In this document: positions 2,651 to 22,429 of the stretch, one piece after another
Numbering within the stretch: position 1 is the first letter of the stretch
How the letters are laid out: every line of letters starts with the position of its first letter
Source of the DNA: a virus
DNA length: 24,080 bases
Direction: 5' to 3' (one strand)
IMG/VR virus record: IMGVR_UViG_3300047554_000932
Location: 1-24,080 of that record
Position numbers and translations under genes: made by a program
Notes under the pieces: generated by a model
Databases searched by the model: none
Told to the model about the DNA's origin: nothing
What the model saw: only the letters and a program-made list of their open reading frames with translations

Positions 2651-4876
2651 TTAGGTGGTGACGTCGGTGATCGTAACGGTCTCGCCGATCGTTGCGTCGA
2701 GGACGATGTTGTCGAGGCTCGAGAGTGTCCGAACGCAAATGCGAACCCGGAAGATTCCGAGGCCCAGCGTGTCGGGAGTGTTCGGGCTCTTCGCGTCGAT
2801 CGAGTAGGCATCGATCCTCTGGTTGTCGCTGTTCGGCTGCCCTTTGAGTCCGTTCAGATAGCCATCGGTCTCGCCGACGAGGTTCGCTCGTCGTGTGCGA
2901 GTGTTGGTTTTCTTCTCGAAGTTCTTGTACCGCTGCGCGAGGGTGTCGGTGATGAAGTCACTCATCCTCTGACGTGCGATGTTCACCAGCGACGGGTTCA
3001 CGAGCGGATCCACCGTCGTGATGCCGCTTTGGATCGACATCGACCCATCGAGAATCGGAGCGGCGATTCCGGACGCCTTGAAGGCGCGGTAATCGAGCTC
3101 GGTGAGGTTCTGAACATCAGCGTTCCCTCGTTCGATGCCGGTAGCGAGCGCCATGAACTCGGTGAGCTGGCCGGGGTTTTCTTCCGGTGCGAGCTGCGAG
3201 ATCGCGCTGGCGACCCAGGTGTCGAATCCAGTATCGATCATGCCGGAGTCGGTGAAGCCTGCGAGTCCTGCGACACCGCGAACGGCGATCTGAGGAACGT
3301 AGGTTTCGACGCCGGGGTAGGCGTAAACGACGCGACGATCACGATACGCGCCGACGCCGGGTTGCGAGGTCGTGCTCTTCGCCACGGACCGAAGGGTCTT
3401 CAGCGGAGGCCTTATGACAGCGATGCGGCCGTACAGGTTCTTCGACGCGTTGATCGCGTTCGCCTTGAGCGCCGACCGAACAGCGTTCGACTGGCGAGCG
3501 GACACGATGAGTCCTGCGGTCCTGGTGACCGCGTTCCGCGCTTCCGTGCTCGCGATAGCGGCGACGTAGGCCGCGTCGATGGCGGCTTCGGACAGCGCCG
3601 CTGAGAGCGGTAGAAGGTTCGTCACCCCGAACGAACCGACCTCGATCGCGTAAGGAACGACGTTGACCGTTCCGGTAGCGGCCGACGGCGTGGTGCCGTC
3701 GTCGTCAGCCGGTCGGACCTTCACGTCGTAAGGGCCGGGGCTGTCGGCCGTGACGGCGATGGTCTGCATCGTGACCCACTCCTCACCGCCCGAGTTTCGT
3801 ACTCGTGTTCCTGCAGGAATGACGCCAGCAGTTCCGACCGCATTCGTCGCAGTCGTTCCTGCGACGAACCCGAGATTGGCCGCGGTGGTGTTCGCGTGGA
3901 CCGTGATGGCGGCGCCGGGACTCGTCGAAGCGTTCGTGGCTCGCATGTAGCCCGACCCGTCGATGGCGATCAGGACAGCATTCGAAGACGCGGTGGCTAC
4001 GAGCGATGCAATCTCCGAGACCTTCACCTGGGTGATGTCTGCGACGTTACCAGTCCCGGCGGTGGTTCCTGCGACGAACCCGAGCTTGGTTCCGACGGCA
4101 GCGTCGACCGCTGCGATCTTCACGTTGCCGCTGGTACCACCGACGCGTGCGGTGAGCTTGATCACCGTAGCCGATACGGTCGTCGCGCAAGTGTAGCCGA
4201 GGAACTCGTTGATTCGAGCGATGCACTGAGCCTGAGACTCGTCGCCGTCCTGGAACGTGATCACGACCGGGCCGATCTGCTGAGGAGTACCCTCGTCGAT
4301 CGTGACTGTGAACTTCTCACCGCCTGCGAATGCGGTGGGGTAGGACCCGGCGCCGCTGTTCACGTTCGCGGCGACGCCTGTGAACGTCGTGTCGACCGCA
4401 CCAGCGCCGATGTCGAAGCTGAGGATCTGGCCGGAAGTGAGGCCGAACGAGAACGCGGAGATCGTGCTGGAAACGCTCGCCTGACGGGAGAACCGAACCG
4501 ATCCGACGCTCGTGTCAGCACGAACGACCGACAGCGATCCGAAACGCTTGTTCACTAGCGAGATGAATCCGTTCCCGTTCCAATACTCGCTGACGAGCGA
4601 CCCGTCTGCCTTACGAGAACGCGCGCAAGGGTTGTTCGCCGTCACGCCGTTGTAGGTGAACCCGAACCCTCCGAAGAGGTTCGTGAGGTCGTCCCCACTC
4701 AGGAGAGCGGTCGGTGTGTTGAACGGACCATCTTCGAACTCGGCGACCATCACGGCGTGGCCGGTCTGAATGCCGGTGATCACTGCCGGAGGCTCGCGAT
4801 CGATGATGACGGTTCCTTCGATGGCGCGAATCTCAGCCAAGCCCGGATCGGAATTGTAGCGACGAATGAAGCCCAC
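2651..4876 (-). CDS. contractile tail sheath protein with duplicated inserted domain
   Basis: The 741-aa product is the largest complete protein of the window. It opens MGFIRRYNSDPGLAEIRAIE, followed by a segment typical of sheath N-termini (AVMVAEFEDGPFNTPTALLS, then LTNLFGGFG, residues 41-73). The C-terminal half (about 440-741) has the conserved sheath core: a helical region of NAINASKNLYGRIAVIRP type, RDRRVVYAYPGVETYVPQIA, and a last domain with TEFMALATGIERGNADVQNL and a final beta unit (IFRVRICVRTLSSLDNIVLD). Residues about 150-400 are a Gly/Ala/Thr-rich beta insertion with two copies of LGFVAGTTA (265-273 and 335-343), 70 residues apart. The start is a GTG at 4876, set by AAGGAG eight bases upstream; an ATG one base after that site is out of frame. 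The protein contracts to drive the tube through the host envelope. Confidence 0.93.
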   Translation of the reverse strand: MGFIRRYNSDPGLAEIRAIEGTVIIDREPPAVITGIQTGHAVMVAEFEDGPFNTPTALLSGDDLTNLFGGFGFTYNGVTANNPCARSRKADGSLVSEYWNGNGFISLVNKRFGSLSVVRADTSVGSVRFSRQASVSSTISAFSFGLTSGQILSFDIGAGAVDTTFTGVAANVNSGAGSYPTAFAGGEKFTVTIDEGTPQQIGPVVITFQDGDESQAQCIARINEFLGYTCATTVSATVIKLTARVGGTSGNVKIAAVDAAVGTKLGFVAGTTAGTGNVADITQVKVSEIASLVATASSNAVLIAIDGSGYMRATNASTSPGAAITVHANTTAANLGFVAGTTATNAVGTAGVIPAGTRVRNSGGEEWVTMQTIAVTADSPGPYDVKVRPADDDGTTPSAATGTVNVVPYAIEVGSFGVTNLLPLSAALSEAAIDAAYVAAIASTEARNAVTRTAGLIVSARQSNAVRSALKANAINASKNLYGRIAVIRPPLKTLRSVAKSTTSQPGVGAYRDRRVVYAYPGVETYVPQIAVRGVAGLAGFTDSGMIDTGFDTWVASAISQLAPEENPGQLTEFMALATGIERGNADVQNLTELDYRAFKASGIAAPILDGSMSIQSGITTVDPLVNPSLVNIARQRMSDFITDTLAQRYKNFEKKTNTRTRRANLVGETDGYLNGLKGQPNSDNQRIDAYSIDAKSPNTPDTLGLGIFRVRICVRTLSSLDNIVLDATIGETVTITDVTT
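3855..4084 (-). repeat. 20-bp direct repeat inside the sheath gene
   Basis: The 20-base string at 3855-3874 recurs exactly at 4065-4084, and after one mismatched base four more bases agree. The copies are 210 bases (70 codons) apart and encode the repeated LGFVAGT segment. Together with loosely similar flanking protein this suggests an internal duplication of a small beta domain. Confidence 0.75.
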
Positions 4877-9798: not shown

Positions 9799-10659
9799 TT
9801 ACAGGATGCCTTGGCGCTGTTTGAACAGCTTGAGCTCCTTCGCGTTCATCGAGTTCGGGAGTCCGGGGCGCGGGGTTTTCCCTGCGAGCGGATCTGGATC
9901 TGAGGGGCCGGTGTTCGAACGAGGACTCGGCGGCTTGGCAGTCGTGATCGGTTTCGTCCTCGGAGGAGGAGTCGGAGCGGCTTCCTTTTTCTCCGGAGCC
10001 GGAGGGGCTGCGGGTTCTTTCGGAGCTGGTGCGGTACTGGCGATTCCGAAGTCGGGGTTTTCCTCGACGAACTTCTTGACCCACTTGTCGAGGTCCTTCG
10101 GGCTAAACGCGCGGCGCTTGTCGTCCGGTAGCGACTTGATGTGGTCTGCGAAGTCGCGACGGACGTATTTCAGACGCTCCGGTCGAACGTAGCGACCGAC
10201 AGTCTCGTTGATGATCGAGTCCTGCTTCATCGCAACGCCTTCGCGTTTCTGGCGGATGATCTGCTCCTCGAGCTCTTTGATGCGCGCGTCCTTCGCACGG
10301 TTGTCGGCCTCGGCGCGCTGACTGGCGGTCAGCCGGGCGCGCTGCCGCGCTTCTTCGAGTCGCTTGAACTTCGCATTCTCTTCGTCGCGCTTTTTCGCAG
10401 CTTCCTTGATCTCTGCGATCTTGGCGGGGTCATCAGTCCCATACGCTTCAATGAGAGCTCGCTTACGCTCTGCAGCGCGTTCTCGATCTAGTCGGTCCTT
10501 CAGCGATTCGCCTTCCAGTACCTGTCCACCTGCTCCGACTACCGCATCGGGTTTCGGTGTCGCAGGCGGTGTCGCCGTAGGCGGTGTCGGTTGCGGCGGC
10601 GTTGCGGCTTCGAGGAGAGCCTGTCCTTCTGGCGAATTGGCGTCGACTAGATCTGGCAT
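9799..10659 (-). CDS. capsid scaffolding protein
   Basis: The 286-aa product is highly charged and has no globular core. After a Pro/Thr-rich N-terminus (residues 20-38) comes a long coiled-coil stretch (about 52-145: LKDRLDRERAAERKRALIEA ... AEADNRAKDARIKELEEQII) and a basic helical segment with VRPERLKYVRRDFADHIKSL (about 158-177). A Pro/Ala/Lys-rich linker (207-265) follows, then a short helical C-terminus (MNAKELKLFKQRQGIL). This layout, together with the position immediately before the major capsid gene, is that of a procapsid scaffold, which nucleates capsid assembly through its C-terminus and is then released or degraded. No separate serine-type prohead protease is visible. The ribosome site (AAAGG, 13 bases upstream) is weak. 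Confidence 0.85.
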   Translation of the reverse strand: MPDLVDANSPEGQALLEAATPPQPTPPTATPPATPKPDAVVGAGGQVLEGESLKDRLDRERAAERKRALIEAYGTDDPAKIAEIKEAAKKRDEENAKFKRLEEARQRARLTASQRAEADNRAKDARIKELEEQIIRQKREGVAMKQDSIINETVGRYVRPERLKYVRRDFADHIKSLPDDKRRAFSPKDLDKWVKKFVEENPDFGIASTAPAPKEPAAPPAPEKKEAAPTPPPRTKPITTAKPPSPRSNTGPSDPDPLAGKTPRPGLPNSMNAKELKLFKQRQGIL

Positions 10660-10689
10660 GGTGGTTTGATTGCCTTTCGATGGGGTGGT

Positions 10690-10762
10690 GGAAAAGGAAA
10701 CGCCCTGGTGACCCCCGAGTGACCTTCCGAGCCCGAAGGGTCACTAGATGCCAACAGGGCGT
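10690..10762 (-). terminator. two-level hairpin terminator before the scaffold gene
   Basis: The outer stem pairs ACGCCCTG (10700-10707) with CAGGGCGT (10755-10762). An inner hairpin pairs AGTGACCTTC (10718-10727) with GAAGGGTCACT (10735-10745), with one bulged base. On the minus strand the outer stem runs straight into TTTCCTTTTC (10700-10691). It lies between the 206-aa virion protein and the scaffold. Confidence 0.7.
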
Positions 10763-10780
10763 CTCACGCTGCGAGTTTAA

Positions 10781-11401
10781 TCACGTGAGGTCGCTGGTAG
10801 CAACCAGCGAATCGGTCACCGAGACCTTCGGTGCGGCGATGAAACGAACGGTCGCTCGCGTGACTGCATCGGTGCCGTTGAACGCGATCAGACCAGCCGC
10901 CGTAACTGCGACCTGACCAGCCGAAGGTGCGGCGGCGCGAGCTGCCGTGGTCTTCGCACCGGTGGAGGCTCCTGCGGTCGCCGTCGCGCTGAGGATGAGG
11001 CGAGCAGTGCGACCGCCTGCAGGCGTGAAGGTGTTGGACACGACGAGCGCGTCCTCTTCAATGATGTCGCCTTCCATCGGAATGTAGGACACCTCAGCAG
11101 CCGTGACGGCATCGGTCGCGAAGAACTGGATGTTTCCATCCTTGTTCACCGTGAACTGAGTCGTCGCGGGAGTGCCGGGAACGAAGGTCATGACACCGGT
11201 GACCGAACCGGCGGTCACGTAAGCGATGAGGCCGACGAGGGCCTTCTGACCTTCTGCGAGGGTCATGATGTTGCTCGAGACGGCGCCCTTCTTGAAAGCG
11301 GCGAGGAGTCCGAGCATCGAACCGAGTTTACCAGCGCGCGCTGCATCAGCGAGCGTGTTGGGGTTTGCACGGTTGAGAACGTCCTTGAGAGTGTTTGCCA
11401 T
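10781..11401 (-). CDS. probable capsid decoration or head-fibre protein
   Basis: The 206-aa product begins with a helical segment (MANTLKDVLNRANPNTLADA, then LGLLAAFKKG) followed by Thr/Ala/Val-rich beta structure. It includes the phrases TQFTVNKDGNIQFFATDAVT and LIAFNGTDAVTRATVRFIAA, which look like two related beta units. Such Ala/Thr-rich beta proteins encoded beside scaffold and capsid genes are usually capsid-surface proteins. I cannot assign a named family. AGGAG seven bases upstream supports the ATG. A strong two-level hairpin follows the gene, suggesting that its expression is set apart from that of the scaffold. Confidence 0.6.
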   Translation of the reverse strand: MANTLKDVLNRANPNTLADAARAGKLGSMLGLLAAFKKGAVSSNIMTLAEGQKALVGLIAYVTAGSVTGVMTFVPGTPATTQFTVNKDGNIQFFATDAVTAAEVSYIPMEGDIIEEDALVVSNTFTPAGGRTARLILSATATAGASTGAKTTAARAAAPSAGQVAVTAAGLIAFNGTDAVTRATVRFIAAPKVSVTDSLVATSDLT

Positions 11402-11483
11402 GTGTTAGCTCCTGATGTGGTTTGCGCGCCCTTCGTTTTCGGACGTTCGGCACCATTGCCACCTGTCCGCTGTCTCGGGCTAA

Positions 11484-11879
11484 TTACTCCGCAATCTTCG
11501 ACGCGAAGTAGGTGAGGGTTCCCGTTCCTTTCACTCGCACCAACTTGATGCGGCGAGTTTCGGGCGTGGTGATCATGAGAACGCGGTTCATGGGTTGAAC
11601 GACCACCACGTTTCCGCCGACGCCATCGTCGTAGGTGATCTCGAGCGTGAACGCGTCGGTGGTCTTCACGAACAGGAAGTCAGCGCTCTCGACTTCGGCG
11701 CCAGTCCCGATCGCGCCGAGCGACACGAATGCATTCGGCGACGCATAGGTGCGCTCGACCAAACCTGTACCCGCGGCGAACGCGCTCGCATAGTTGAGGT
11801 CAGTGTCGAAGCGACTGTACCCGACCCCGCTCCCGGAGTTTGAGCCCTCGATGTTTCCCGACACCTTCAGCGTTCCCAT
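11484..11879 (-). CDS. small beta-rich virion protein (unknown)
   Basis: The 131-aa product (MGTLKVSGNIEGSNSGSGVG...) is Gly/Thr/Ser-rich at the N-terminus and then forms regular beta strands (DAFTLEITYDDGVGGNVVVV, RVLMITTPETRRIKLVRVKG, GTLTYFASKI). There is no signal peptide, membrane segment or catalytic motif. The composition and place in the head-gene block suggest a capsid-surface or decoration protein, but I do not recognise it. It stands alone between two intergenic regions, the upstream one holding a hairpin and a long palindrome, so it may be separately transcribed. No clear ribosome site is seen before the ATG. Confidence 0.65.
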   Translation of the reverse strand: MGTLKVSGNIEGSNSGSGVGYSRFDTDLNYASAFAAGTGLVERTYASPNAFVSLGAIGTGAEVESADFLFVKTTDAFTLEITYDDGVGGNVVVVQPMNRVLMITTPETRRIKLVRVKGTGTLTYFASKIAE

Positions 11880-11904
11880 GACGTATCAACTACACCCGGT
11901 CGGA

Positions 11905-11942
11905 CAAAACTGGAAGGGGAGACGAGTCGAAACCCATCTCCC
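11905..11942 (-). terminator. hairpin with short T-tract (terminator candidate)
   Basis: On the minus strand GGGAGATGGG (11942-11933) pairs with CTCGTCTCCC (11926-11917), including two G-U pairs, around the loop TTTCGA. The T-tract (GTTTTG at about 11910-11905) starts 7 bases after the stem, which weakens the case. It follows the 83-aa gene and precedes the 131-aa virion gene. Confidence 0.5.
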
Positions 11943-11950
11943 TCTTTCAT

Positions 11951-11972
11951 AATGGAAAGTCGACTTTCCATT
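11951..11972. repeat. 22-bp perfect palindrome
   Basis: All 22 bases are self-complementary (AATGGAAAGTC followed by its exact reverse complement GACTTTCCATT) with no spacer. As RNA it could fold into a 9-bp stem with a TCGA loop; as DNA it is the shape of an operator for a symmetric dimer. It lies 72 bases upstream of the 131-aa gene ATG and just before the terminator-like hairpin at 11905-11942. No T-tract follows. Confidence 0.85.
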
Positions 11973-11990
11973 CGGTCGCGACTTGTTAGG

Positions 11991-12242
11991 TCACGCGCCG
12001 CTGAGCTTGAACGGCTTCCGACCGTCGCCGATCGAGCCCACTCCGATGTCCTTGCCAGGAAGCGGAGTCGCGTCGGCGAGCAGAATGCGACCGCCCGGTG
12101 CGGCGGTTCGCATGTCGAGGTCCTCAGCCTCGCCGGTTTTCTGCATCGGAACGGGAGTCCGTCCGCCAGAGTCCTTGGTCAAATCAGGTCCGGCGCTGCC
12201 GCCAAAAGACCCGCGCGGGTTCTGAATGAGATTGCTGGCCAT
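11991..12242 (-). CDS. small protein with GSAGP motif, A copy (unknown)
   Basis: I place the start at ATG 12242 (83 aa, MASNLIQNPRGSFGGSAGPD) because GAGGAG lies eight bases upstream; an ATG 15 bases earlier would put that site inside the gene. The protein is Gly/Pro-rich and looks mostly disordered, with FGGSAGPDLTKDSGGRTPVP near the N-terminus and a short hydrophobic stretch RILLADATPL later. The following fragment GSAGP...RTP recurs in the neighbouring gene. It lies between the minor head gene block and the capsid-surface genes; a linker or virion-associated role is possible but unproven. Confidence 0.65.
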   Translation of the reverse strand: MASNLIQNPRGSFGGSAGPDLTKDSGGRTPVPMQKTGEAEDLDMRTAAPGGRILLADATPLPGKDIGVGSIGDGRKPFKLSGA

Positions 12243-18440: not shown

Positions 18441-18733
18441 GTGGGAGTGGCCAGCGCGAGTCGCTGCTCGATGTTGTAGATCCGCCGATCGGACTCTTGG
18501 TTGCGCTCGCGGATCTCGTCCATGAAGGGACCGATGAGGGTTTGAAAGTTCCGATCGATGTTAGCCATGTGGCGCTTGATGGAGTCGATGTCCGTCGCGA
18601 TACCAGCCACCGTACCATCCATCGACGTCACCACTTCGAGGGTGTCCTCGAGCAGATCTTCGACGGCGCTGAGGCGTGCCTCAGTCGCGCTCAGCAACCT
18701 GTGAAGTCCTTGACCCCGATCGTCGTCGCTCAT
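18437..18733 (-). CDS. small coiled-coil protein
   Basis: The 98-aa product is helical with clear heptad-like hydrophobic spacing (LLSATEARLSAVEDLLEDTL, then IATDIDSIKRHMANIDRNFQ, IGPFMDEIRERNQESDRRIY) and ends NIEQRLALATPT. There is no signal or membrane segment. It is translationally coupled on both sides (ATGA at 18730-18733 and 18437-18440), so it is made together with the amidase and the membrane protein. A scaffold or regulator in the lysis cassette is one possibility, but I do not recognise the family. Confidence 0.65.
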   Translation of the reverse strand: MSDDDRGQGLHRLLSATEARLSAVEDLLEDTLEVVTSMDGTVAGIATDIDSIKRHMANIDRNFQTLIGPFMDEIRERNQESDRRIYNIEQRLALATPT

Positions 18734-19419
18734 GGCGCTTCCTTCATGGCAGTTTGAAACTCGCGGACGAGCTCCAAGTCGTGTTCGCGGTTCTGCGGTT
18801 CAGCCGTCTGGCGATAGGTGATGAACCCTAACAGCTTGGTGGCGACGAGTTTCTTCGGGGGCTGATCGACGAGGCGGATCATTCGCGACTCGTTACCACC
18901 GATCGTCGTGAGGCGAGGAGTGAGCGCATTCTCATCGAGGCCGCCCCATCCGACGACACGGTTGACGTGTCGGAACCACGCCGTCTCGGGCTTGCCCGGC
19001 GTGCTCCGATCCCAGATCGCGAGGTCGCCTGTTCTCGGCTCCCACTTATGCTGAAGGACCTCGGAATACGAATGCCAAAGGCCCTTCGCCTTCGCATCGG
19101 ACACGAGCTCTACGACGCCGGCTCGATAGTAGTGGGGCCGAACCTCGCCCTCGAGAATGCACTGCTCGAGGCACCACGACACGAATGCGGCACACCAGTT
19201 TCCTTCCTTGATGCGGAGGAACTCGGTCGGGCCAATGCGGCCATCGCCGTTCAGGTCGCGAACGCATCCGGCGAAGTATTCCGCGATCCTCGGAGATGTG
19301 TTCGGCCCCGGAGAGGGTTGGAGGGACGCGACGCCCTTCGTCATCTCATCCTTCGCTAGCAGGACGCATCGCATCCCGAGCGAGATTCCTGGGTTCTTCC
19401 ATGGCGGCAGACTCGACAT
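18730..19419 (-). CDS. CHAP-type peptidoglycan amidase/endopeptidase with EF-hand loop (endolysin candidate)
   Basis: The 229-aa product has the CHAP/NlpC-P60 catalytic pattern: GNWCAAFVSWCLEQC (73-87) with nucleophile Cys76, GDLAIWDRSTPGK (131-143), and FRHVNRVVGW (149-158) with His151, followed by TTIGGNES (171-178), the usual end of the active-site sheet. Before it, residues 34-54 (QPSPGPNTSPRIAEYFAGCV) match the start of phage CHAP hydrolases. A perfect EF-hand loop, D55-L-N57-G-D59-G-R-I62-G-P-T-E66, is inserted immediately before the nucleophile helix. No signal peptide is present, so release would need a holin or virion delivery. The protein cleaves peptidoglycan bonds for lysis or entry. 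No clear ribosome site is seen before the ATG. Confidence 0.8.
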   Translation of the reverse strand: MSSLPPWKNPGISLGMRCVLLAKDEMTKGVASLQPSPGPNTSPRIAEYFAGCVRDLNGDGRIGPTEFLRIKEGNWCAAFVSWCLEQCILEGEVRPHYYRAGVVELVSDAKAKGLWHSYSEVLQHKWEPRTGDLAIWDRSTPGKPETAWFRHVNRVVGWGGLDENALTPRLTTIGGNESRMIRLVDQPPKKLVATKLLGFITYRQTAEPQNREHDLELVREFQTAMKEAP

Positions 19420-19435: not shown

Positions 19436-21628
19436 TCACGACCCGGTGTATTCAATCGGAAGCGATCCCCACGCCCACACATCGCTCTCACCTTCTAGGT
19501 TCGTCACTCGTACCCGGTAACGCGCGTCGACGTAGCGTCGGACGTTCGTATCCTGCGACGTGATACTGACCAGCGCGACGTTCGACGTTCCTTCGACGAG
19601 CTCGATGCCGCCGCCTGGAGCGGTGCTCTTCGTAACCTTGAATGACCCTTCGGGTTCGAACCATTCGAACGAGATCACCCAGTTCGACACGTCGAGCGGT
19701 GCGCCACTGGATGTCGTGAACACGAGTCGGAGCTTTCGGTCGGTCTTTTCGTAAATCGTGATCATCGAGCCTCCATCGAGAGTGCATACCCCCGGTCGCT
19801 TGCGAGCTACCACCTGAACGATACCAGGAGCGGAGTCAGAACTCAGCTCAACAATTCCGATGCGACGTAGCGAGATCGCGACGCGATGATCGTCTGGAAG
19901 CGGGACGTTCTTGACGACGAGGTACACCGCGATTCCGCCGATGTGCTCTTCGGACGGCGAGAACGCGAGTGCGATGGATTGGTCACCAGGTGTGAGCGAG
20001 ATCGGTGAGACGGCCTCGGACGACGCGACCCCGTTCAGGGAGATTGCGATGTAAACGTCCTCGAGTGCGTTCACGCGCTCCTCGGACTTCACACCTAGCA
20101 GCGCCACCGCGACCGGAGCCGTGGTGACCTGAATCCCTGCGACACGTTCCTCACTCGCCGCACCGGCCAGCAGAACGCCGAGCGACGCGGTGACCTGAAG
20201 TCCTGCAGCGCGTTCCTCGGACGGGGACGAAGTCAGTGAGATCGTGACCGGGCCGGTGGCCACCGAACCTCCGACGACTCGTTCCTCGGACGCTACTTGC
20301 GCCAAGGACAGCACCACAGGAGTCGGAGCGACTGAAACCCCGGCGGCCCGTTCTTCAGACGCTAGCGGTCCAAGTGTGAGGGAGAACGTAGCGATCACGG
20401 ACGGCCCGATGGTGCGTTCCTCGGACGCGATTCGTGTGGGGGTCACGGTCACGACCCCAGGCTCGACGGCGACCCCAGCGGCCCGTTCTTCAGACACCAC
20501 CCCGCTCAATAGGATCTGGGTTGGCCCGAGTGCGACGGACGGCCCGATGGTGCGTTCCTCCGCCGGAACCGCCCCGAGGCTTAGCGACTCAACGACGGAC
20601 ACCGAAACCCCCGAGGAGCGCTCCTCGGACGCTACAGGGGCGAGCAGAACCCCCAACACCTGCTCGACAGCGACCCCGATCGCCCGTTCTTCAGACGACA
20701 GGCCCGCGAGGTTCACTGCTAGCGCCTGAACGAATGAAGGACCGACCGCCCGTTCTTCGGACGCGATGGGCGCGAGACTGGTCGTGACAGCACCAGTCGC
20801 CACCCCAATGGGGGCGATTCGTTCCTCAGCCGCTACAGGTCCGAGGGCGGTAGCGATGGCCTGCTGGACTGAAGGTCCGGTCGTCCGCTCTTCCGACGCG
20901 ACGCCGCCAAGTGTTGTGCTGACGGCCTGTTGAAAGGAAGGACCAACCGCGAGCTCTTCGCTGTTCAGCGCGCCCAGCGTTACTGAGATGACCTGCTGGA
21001 AGGACGGACCAACGACGCGCTCTTCCGACGCGATGCCGTTGAGGGTAGTCCCGAGTGCGATCGAGTAGGAAGGTCCGATGGTGCGTTCTTCGGTCGCGAC
21101 GCCGTTGAGGACAGTCGCAAGCGCGATCGCTACCGTTGGACCGATGGTGCGCTCCTCCGACGCGACGTTGCCGAGCGTCGTCTCCACCACCACGGCCACG
21201 GTCGGACCGAGAGTACGTTCTTCGCTCGTTGAACCATTCAGCGAGACCGTGACGACAGTCGTGAAGTCCGAGGACTCCACCACGTTGGAGAACTGAGCTC
21301 CGTCGTACCACACCTGAGCGATTCGATAGTTGGTCGCAGGCGTTAGGCCGGTCGCATCGATCGGCCATGTGAACGGAGTCGTGGTGACCGTCGGCGCCTC
21401 GGTGTTACCGCTCCAAGTGACTGCCGGAGATCCGCTACCGTTGAGACCTGCTAGAATCTGCCCAGCATTCGGAGTGACCCAGCCCGCTGAGGGAGCCACG
21501 ATGGCGTGAAGCTGAGGCGCGTCGTCTGCTGGCCAATAGTCGACCGCAGCAACGACCGCCGACGTACCGTTTATGCTGTCAGCGAATCGTGCCGTGAGAC
21601 TTTTGGTAACGGCGCGAGATTGAGACAT
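19436..21628 (-). CDS. repeat-rich virion protein (head or tail fibre-like)
   Basis: The 730-aa product has three parts. Residues 1-133 resemble a fibronectin-type III/Ig-like unit (ATGLTPATNYRIAQVWYDG, then SNVVESSDFTT), common at phage surface-protein ends. Residues 134 to about 580 are some 20 tandem copies of a 22-23-residue unit with consensus xSEERxxGxSVxxxxxxxLxxV; copies 7, 18 and 19 are degenerate and copy 5 has SEEL. The remainder ends in a beta domain of baseplate-upper or BppU-like appearance (ITIYEKTDRKLRLVFTTSSG ... VSNWVISFEWFEPEG ... YRVRVTNLEGES). This layout suggests an extended shaft with terminal adhesive or attachment domains. It precedes the lytic cassette and follows other virion genes, and has only a weak GAAG ribosome site. 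Confidence 0.75.
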   Translation of the reverse strand: MSQSRAVTKSLTARFADSINGTSAVVAAVDYWPADDAPQLHAIVAPSAGWVTPNAGQILAGLNGSGSPAVTWSGNTEAPTVTTTPFTWPIDATGLTPATNYRIAQVWYDGAQFSNVVESSDFTTVVTVSLNGSTSEERTLGPTVAVVVETTLGNVASEERTIGPTVAIALATVLNGVATEERTIGPSYSIALGTTLNGIASEERVVGPSFQQVISVTLGALNSEELAVGPSFQQAVSTTLGGVASEERTTGPSVQQAIATALGPVAAEERIAPIGVATGAVTTSLAPIASEERAVGPSFVQALAVNLAGLSSEERAIGVAVEQVLGVLLAPVASEERSSGVSVSVVESLSLGAVPAEERTIGPSVALGPTQILLSGVVSEERAAGVAVEPGVVTVTPTRIASEERTIGPSVIATFSLTLGPLASEERAAGVSVAPTPVVLSLAQVASEERVVGGSVATGPVTISLTSSPSEERAAGLQVTASLGVLLAGAASEERVAGIQVTTAPVAVALLGVKSEERVNALEDVYIAISLNGVASSEAVSPISLTPGDQSIALAFSPSEEHIGGIAVYLVVKNVPLPDDHRVAISLRRIGIVELSSDSAPGIVQVVARKRPGVCTLDGGSMITIYEKTDRKLRLVFTTSSGAPLDVSNWVISFEWFEPEGSFKVTKSTAPGGGIELVEGTSNVALVSITSQDTNVRRYVDARYRVRVTNLEGESDVWAWGSLPIEYTGS
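19889..21229 (-). repeat. about 20 tandem 66-69-bp coding repeats
   Basis: This stretch encodes the SEER units of the 730-aa protein. Periodicity is 66-69 bases, and the plus strand shows frequent variants of CGTTCCTCGGACG and CGTTCTTCAGACG at that interval. Copies are diverged in DNA but constant in the protein motif, indicating purifying selection on SEER. Confidence 0.85.
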
Positions 21629-21631
21629 CGA

Positions 21632-22429
21632 TTACTTCTGGCCAAGACGTAGGAACCCCTGAACAAGTCCGGTGGACGTTGTGGAACAGAGTACCGCACC
21701 GAAGAGCGCGGCGTCGTTGTAGATTCGTGGGAACCCAAGGTCGAGCGGTCCGAGTCGGCTGATCTGGTTCGTCACCGCCGTCGGAACATTCGCGATCTGG
21801 CGAGTGAGCGTGACTCCGAAGCTGCCAGCAGTGCCGGTCGTTGCGGAGAGCGTGACGGACTGAATGGACTTGATGACGTCGCCGGCCGTGGTGGGTAGGA
21901 TCGGGAGCATGCGCCCGGCTCGCATCGTAGCGGCCAGCGCTACGACGCATGTCCTAGATCCGACGTCGCTTTGATTCGTGTAGGTGATGGTGGCGTTCAC
22001 GCCCGTCGCACCGGTGTCGGTGTACCACTCAAGCCACCACTGAGCGTCGCTTCCGTCTGAAAGCAAACCACGGCTCGCAGGGATCGAACCGCTGACCGTC
22101 TGCGCGCCAGTGTTCGTGCCGCTGAGCCCGCCCATGTGCCCGCATCGGTCGAACAGCATGAAAGACCCAGCATTCGCCATCTGGAGCCCGATGCCGGTGA
22201 GGTACGTCTCGACCGGGTTGGTCGGATTCGTGAAGGTGAAGTAACCAGTGTCGCTGTCCACCGGGGTCGCCCATGCACCGGGGATCGAAGGCTGAGTCGG
22301 TTGACCGGTTGCGCGAAACAGCGAGGTCATGCCGCCGGCCAGCGCATTCGAGATCGACGCCTTCGAGATACTGTACTGGACCTGAGCCGCCACGGCTGCC
22401 GAGAGATCGCTGAGTGATGTGATGGCCAT
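21632..22429 (-). CDS. virion structural protein (capsid-surface type)
   Basis: The 265-aa product (MAITSLSDLSAAVAAQVQYS...) has an N-terminal helical stretch, then beta-rich sequence with MLFDRCGHMGGLSGTNTGAQ (about 91-110) and ATITYTNQSDVGSRTCVVAL. This order, 'DR..H.GGLSGT...AQTV' followed by 'TYTNQ....RT', is one I recall from unnamed structural proteins encoded in head/fibre blocks of other tailed phages. The sequence also has VIKSIQSVTLSATTGTAGSF and a strand-rich end. AGGAG six bases before the ATG supports the start. It lies between the 279-aa protein and the repeat-rich fibre, fitting a surface decoration role. Confidence 0.65.
   Translation of the reverse strand: MAITSLSDLSAAVAAQVQYSISKASISNALAGGMTSLFRATGQPTQPSIPGAWATPVDSDTGYFTFTNPTNPVETYLTGIGLQMANAGSFMLFDRCGHMGGLSGTNTGAQTVSGSIPASRGLLSDGSDAQWWLEWYTDTGATGVNATITYTNQSDVGSRTCVVALAATMRAGRMLPILPTTAGDVIKSIQSVTLSATTGTAGSFGVTLTRQIANVPTAVTNQISRLGPLDLGFPRIYNDAALFGAVLCSTTSTGLVQGFLRLGQK

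Follow-up and report, generated by a model that had tools for sequence, protein, structure and literature searches.

The closest described system to the array studied here is a repeat of phage minor tail proteins with the pattern GI(A/P)SxEAFG(T/S)P, hereafter the SAEAFG repeat. Its consensus matches 97 phage records, 93 of which belong to Mycobacterium phages, and the matching proteins are mostly annotated as minor tail proteins; the minor-tail families phrog_13352, phrog_8501, and phrog_553 carry the repeat. Pfam models gave no match to SAEAFG units or to the SEER units described below in the scans made, and a full-text literature search for the motif found no paper on or naming the SAEAFG repeat. 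In a scan of IMG/VR, at least 312 stretches encode SAEAFG repeats, and the 80 that were read have 3–35 units per ORF, with spacings of mainly 20, 22, and 23 aa. Copy number thus differs widely between relatives, as an earlier note made from the DNA sequence of our locus had anticipated. Some proteins consist of repeats only, including Brujita gp24 and Firecracker gp62 (phrog_8501). Corndog gp64 and Catdawg gp61, judged by their size and position, are also of the repeats-only type, and a consensus match places Catdawg gp61 there as well. Both were present in purified virions by mass spectrometry (PMC4351075).

Two other tandem arrays invite comparison with the protein described here, P0001. The LFSNTNSFY-type repeats of Pseudanabaena phage Pam2 gp68 have a similar period and an xGAVxLxPS half; they differ from those of P0001 in lacking the S-x-E core and in conserving the other half of the unit. 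These Pam2 repeats (L022:4794-6413) match phrog_8501 with an E value of 3.7e-9, which hints that they may be a further variant of the SAEAFG repeat. The BACON-domain repeats of crAssphage likewise stand in tandem in a phage protein (PMC6949934). BACON is a separate carbohydrate-binding domain.

The SEER array and its genomic setting

The window, the whole stretch of DNA analyzed, is 24,080 bases long and comprises an entire IMG/VR virus record, probably a fragment. The features discussed below are as follows.

21632..22429, minus strand: upstream neighbor of the repeat gene, 265 aa, with Rhodobacter phage homologues
19436-21628, minus strand: ORF of the repeat protein P0001, 730 aa, with an ATG start and the stop included
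21227..21628, minus strand: P0001 N-terminal region, aa 1-134, without detectable relative
19886..21226, minus strand: P0001 array of 20 units, aa 135-581, consensus SEERxxG[PV]SVxxxxxxxLxxVA
19436..19885, minus strand: P0001 C-terminal region, aa 582-730, of which aa 620-726 match phrog_1084
18730..19419, minus strand: downstream neighbor, CHAP-type endolysin-like by a weak match below the Pfam cut-off

The units of P0001 are contiguous and 22 or 23 aa long, with one of 21 aa, and self-identity of the protein is 0.33 at lag 22 and 0.20 at lag 23, compared with ~0.07 at other lags. The earlier note had described about twenty unbroken units of 22–23 residues in a 730-aa protein at 19889-21229; our analysis bears this out, with 20 units and boundaries within 3 bases of those positions. 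Its description of the SEER core as nearly invariant holds for 17 of the 20 units, which carry [STA]EER (SEER 14 times, AEER or TEER three times), but degeneracy marks the last two to three of them (SSEAVSP, SEEHIGG), units 19-20 included. Shuffles of the array region yielded SEER-type motifs with a mean count of 0.02 and a maximum of 2. At the DNA level, mean identity between units is 45%, SEER is written with many synonymous codons, and Tandem Repeats Finder detected only 2.3 copies. These three observations rule out recent tandem duplication of the DNA, and the low identity and mixed codons indicate that the array is old and has been maintained by selection at the level of the protein.

The ends of P0001 are less readily placed. 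Nothing matched its first 130 aa in a Pfam scan or in phage tblastn, and by eye this region looks Ig/FN3-like. Residues 620-726 weakly match phrog_1084 (E 2.7e-4), a family of unknown function. Pfam did not confirm a suspected likeness of the C-terminal region to BppU-type baseplate domains. Searches with tblastn using P0001 or its ends gave no significant match in the phage collection, and SAEAFG loci held no convincing homologues of the ends or of the neighboring genes. The proposal of the earlier note that the array separates two adhesive domains is thus not borne out: no match was obtained for the first 130 aa, and the weak phrog_1084 match is the only one for the C-terminal region.

The surrounding genes, also on the minus strand, encode an SPP1-type portal, a Mu F-like head protein, a major head protein (phrog_1357), and a neck protein (phrog_5), and the left end of the window gives weak tape-measure matches. 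A large terminase gene was not recognized among the ORFs searched in window 1-24080, a set that included small ORFs in part. The 265-aa neighbor has homologues, ~45% identical and annotated as hypothetical, in 23 records of Rhodobacter capsulatus phages; in RcZahn the homologue is the last gene of the tail module, and in RcGingersnap it stands beside replication genes. The nearest matches of the portal are from Komagataeibacter phages at 24–27% identity. In searches that may leave out records very near the window, IMG/VR yielded no close relatives of P0001 or of the portal, and the strict SEER array likewise lacked close relatives among phages, in IMG/VR, and in GTDB genomes. The phage lineage is poorly sampled.

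Kinship of SEER units with the SAEAFG repeat

Sequence comparison places the SEER units in the same family as the GI[AP]SxEAFG[TS]P repeat of minor tail proteins, as a charged variant of it. When units are aligned at the serine, both types share S-x-E, a proline at S+7, a hydrophobic residue (aliphatic or aromatic) at S+9, and a closing G-[IV]-A or, more broadly, [GP]-[IV]-A. Unit lengths of 22 and 23 aa are common to P0001 and SAEAFG proteins such as Marvin gp88, Kumao gp32, Cosmo gp45, and Corndog gp64, and the 23-aa form of each carries the same optional xGxV insert (SVATGPVTISL in SEER unit 15, TVTTGAVTISP in the family). Both also occur as tandem arrays of variable copy number in a tail gene near a lysin. 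The core differs. P0001 has SEER, glycine at S+6, and no phenylalanine at S+4, whereas the family has SAEAFG, glycine at S+5, and phenylalanine at S+4; the 100% frequencies of the core glutamate and glycine in the SAEAFG units are by construction, as the motif filter fixes both. In place of xAFG, SEER units have arginine at S+3, small or aliphatic residues at S+4/5, and glycine at S+6, and we therefore file the array as a variant and not under the strict SAEAFG subtype. Moreover, leucine in P0001 replaces the proline that precedes the closing G-[IV]-A in SAEAFG repeats, 20-aa units occur in the family but not in P0001, and the flanking domains are unrelated.

Multiple comparisons support this kinship. 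First, when the SEER units are scored with a SAEAFG position-specific scoring matrix (PSSM), the in-register score is far above that of every other offset. With positions 0-6 (the SEER core and its glycine) left out, none of 5000 shared column permutations reached the observed score; with positions 0-3 alone left out, one of 5000 did. Second, the hhalign profile–profile score is 23.4, and 40 permuted controls gave no more than 14.2. Third, the profiles match reciprocally. A SAEAFG HMM matches P0001 with an E value of 2.3e-6 among 4,892 ORFs, many of which come from contigs picked for spaced EER motifs. The SEER-unit HMM, run against 4,984 ORFs, matches the SAEAFG family with a best E value of 1.5e-17, and all but one of its matches at E<0.01 besides P0001 itself are SAEAFG ORFs or the IMG/VR stretch L173; the exception is a single unrelated ORF at E 5.7e-5. 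The repeat-profile search proposed in the earlier note thus retrieves the SAEAFG family almost exclusively. Finally, L173 contains, at 10567-12000, a single array with GIASEERYG, TEERFG, GIASEEREG, and AISSAETIG units, which both profiles match. This mixed array is a bridge between the SEER and SAET-type forms of the repeat. It was the one true mixed array found when IMG/VR was searched with a DNA pattern for three EER cores ~22 aa apart; the other matches, mostly coiled-coil and low-complexity ORFs, were dismissed.

Independent convergence on a similar β repeat, with no shared descent with the SAEAFG repeats, would fit the isolation of the strict SEER array among phages, IMG/VR, and GTDB genomes and the one-position offset of the conserved glycine (S+6 as opposed to S+5). 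We strongly disfavor this explanation, as it is at odds with the in-register match that persists without the core, with the reciprocal profile matches, and with the mixed L173 array. The earlier note knew of no named repeat with the SEER signature; the array does have known relatives, being a variant of the minor-tail repeat of phrog_13352, phrog_8501, and phrog_553. The PHROGs profiles of these three families did not match P0001 at E<=1, and for this reason we class P0001 as a variant of the repeat and not as a member of a PHROG. A search of PDB sequences with P0001 gave insignificant matches only, and a MAFFT alignment of overlapping windows, which were aligned by identity, was uninformative about the register of the repeat.

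The apparently orphan SEER repeat is thereby tied to a very common, unnamed family of phage tail repeats, one that tolerates a swap of its core motif.

Predicted fold and a candidate stalk

AlphaFold modeling of SEER units 1-6, with the other units of P0001 as the alignment, gave a pLDDT of 81 and a pTM of 0.74. Each modeled unit comprises a short strand, an EE turn, a second short strand, a GP turn, and a long strand. A SAEAFG array was predicted with a pLDDT of 72, its strands being split differently from those of the SEER model. A periodic, all-β module is the sole point that both models support. The suggestion of the earlier note that the repeats form a β array therefore agrees with a prediction that is mostly β, with periodic strands, for which a regular β-solenoid is one possible form. 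The SEER model had no PDB match at E<=0.001, its TM scores against the PDB chains listed all staying under 0.2, and the SAEAFG model had no significant match to a solved structure. Among the Foldseek candidates, the hexapeptide solenoids GlmU and LpxA were dismissed (TM 0.1–0.2, rmsd >11 Å). A BFVD search gave no match at E<=0.001; a phage protein with a glycine-rich domain reached a probability of 0.98 there and was set aside for a TM of only 0.51 and an E value of 0.025.

We propose, with a probability of roughly 0.7, that the SEER array is a β-rich stalk within an appendage of the tail or baseplate, built from a variant of the minor-tail repeat. One terminal domain of P0001 would dock on the virion and the array would hold the other, probably a binding domain, away from it, at a distance set by the number of units; to judge from relatives, the anchor would lie at the C-terminus. 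Since no binding or anchoring domain was identified at either end of P0001, we infer its polarity and receptor-binding role, and likewise the stalk fold. The earlier note had called P0001 a virion protein. Relatives of the repeat are indeed found in virions, and from them we infer the same for P0001 in its own particle.

The architecture of relatives supports a stalk. Their arrays connect a domain of the head-closure or minor-tail-protein type with lectin, Ig-like, or β-helix domains. For example, in a single 888-aa ORF of L088 (2537-5200), a Laminin-G lectin domain is followed by 18 SAEAFG units and then by a head-closure Hc1/FII (lambda FII-like) domain, a composition that suggests an adhesin on the phage neck. 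Laminin-G domains also occur in L044 and L074, a β-helix and an Ig domain in L093, and a C-terminal minor tail protein domain (phrog_1885) in L033, L065, and L070. The minor-tail annotation of SAEAFG homologues and the presence of family members in the virions of other phages are consistent with this role, as is gene order. Often, as in Kumao, Cosmo, FSIL01-1, and phiT46-1, the repeat gene precedes the lysin by a few genes; P0001 is encoded just before the lysin-like gene, and the RcZahn homologue of its upstream neighbor ends a tail module. Against a stalk in a tail appendage, the PHROGs minor-tail profiles miss P0001, its ends and the genes beside it find no convincing counterparts in SAEAFG loci, and the SEER and SAEAFG models disagree and resemble no solved fold.

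The L088 fusion also bears on two other explanations. As its array is joined to a head-closure domain, the repeat occurs beyond tail tips, and P0001 might be a head or neck decoration or assembly protein whose array wraps or braces the particle. L074, which matches a head structural profile, points the same way. We consider this improbable, however, as most relatives match minor-tail profiles and as the P0001 gene precedes a lysin-like gene and adjoins an appendage-like one. Alternatively, the array itself could be the binding surface and no passive spacer, with charged hairpins making multivalent, low-affinity contacts to host polysaccharide or surface polymers. The conservation of SEER in 17 of 20 units while other positions vary would be expected in that case, and the repeats-only proteins Firecracker gp62 and Brujita gp24 have no other domain. 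This explanation is unlikely, if less so than decoration of the head or neck: the L088 array sits between lectin and anchor domains, and relatives that lack an acidic or charged core keep the repeat (IASSASVGRP in Brujita, SVPSRVAVGTP in phiT46-1), which suggests that the role of the repeat is structural and not one of contact.

Returning to the stalk, we put forward a broader version only tentatively. SEER and SAEAFG repeats may together represent an undescribed stalk fold that serves as an interchangeable spacer in many unrelated phages, combined with varied anchors and binding domains and tuned in length by copy number, with SEER as a charged subtype that has its own stacking chemistry. The fusions of lectin, array, and head-closure domains would place adhesins not only on the tail but also on the neck, and through them the notion of a stalk whose length can be adjusted becomes open to testing.

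As to the tail of this phage, a 741-aa protein encoded at 2651-4876 of the window weakly matches a tail sheath (Gp18 domain III) and shares 47% identity with an Alicyclobacillus phage sheath across 58 aa. The tail is thus likely to be contractile, this one weak sheath match being the sole sign of it.
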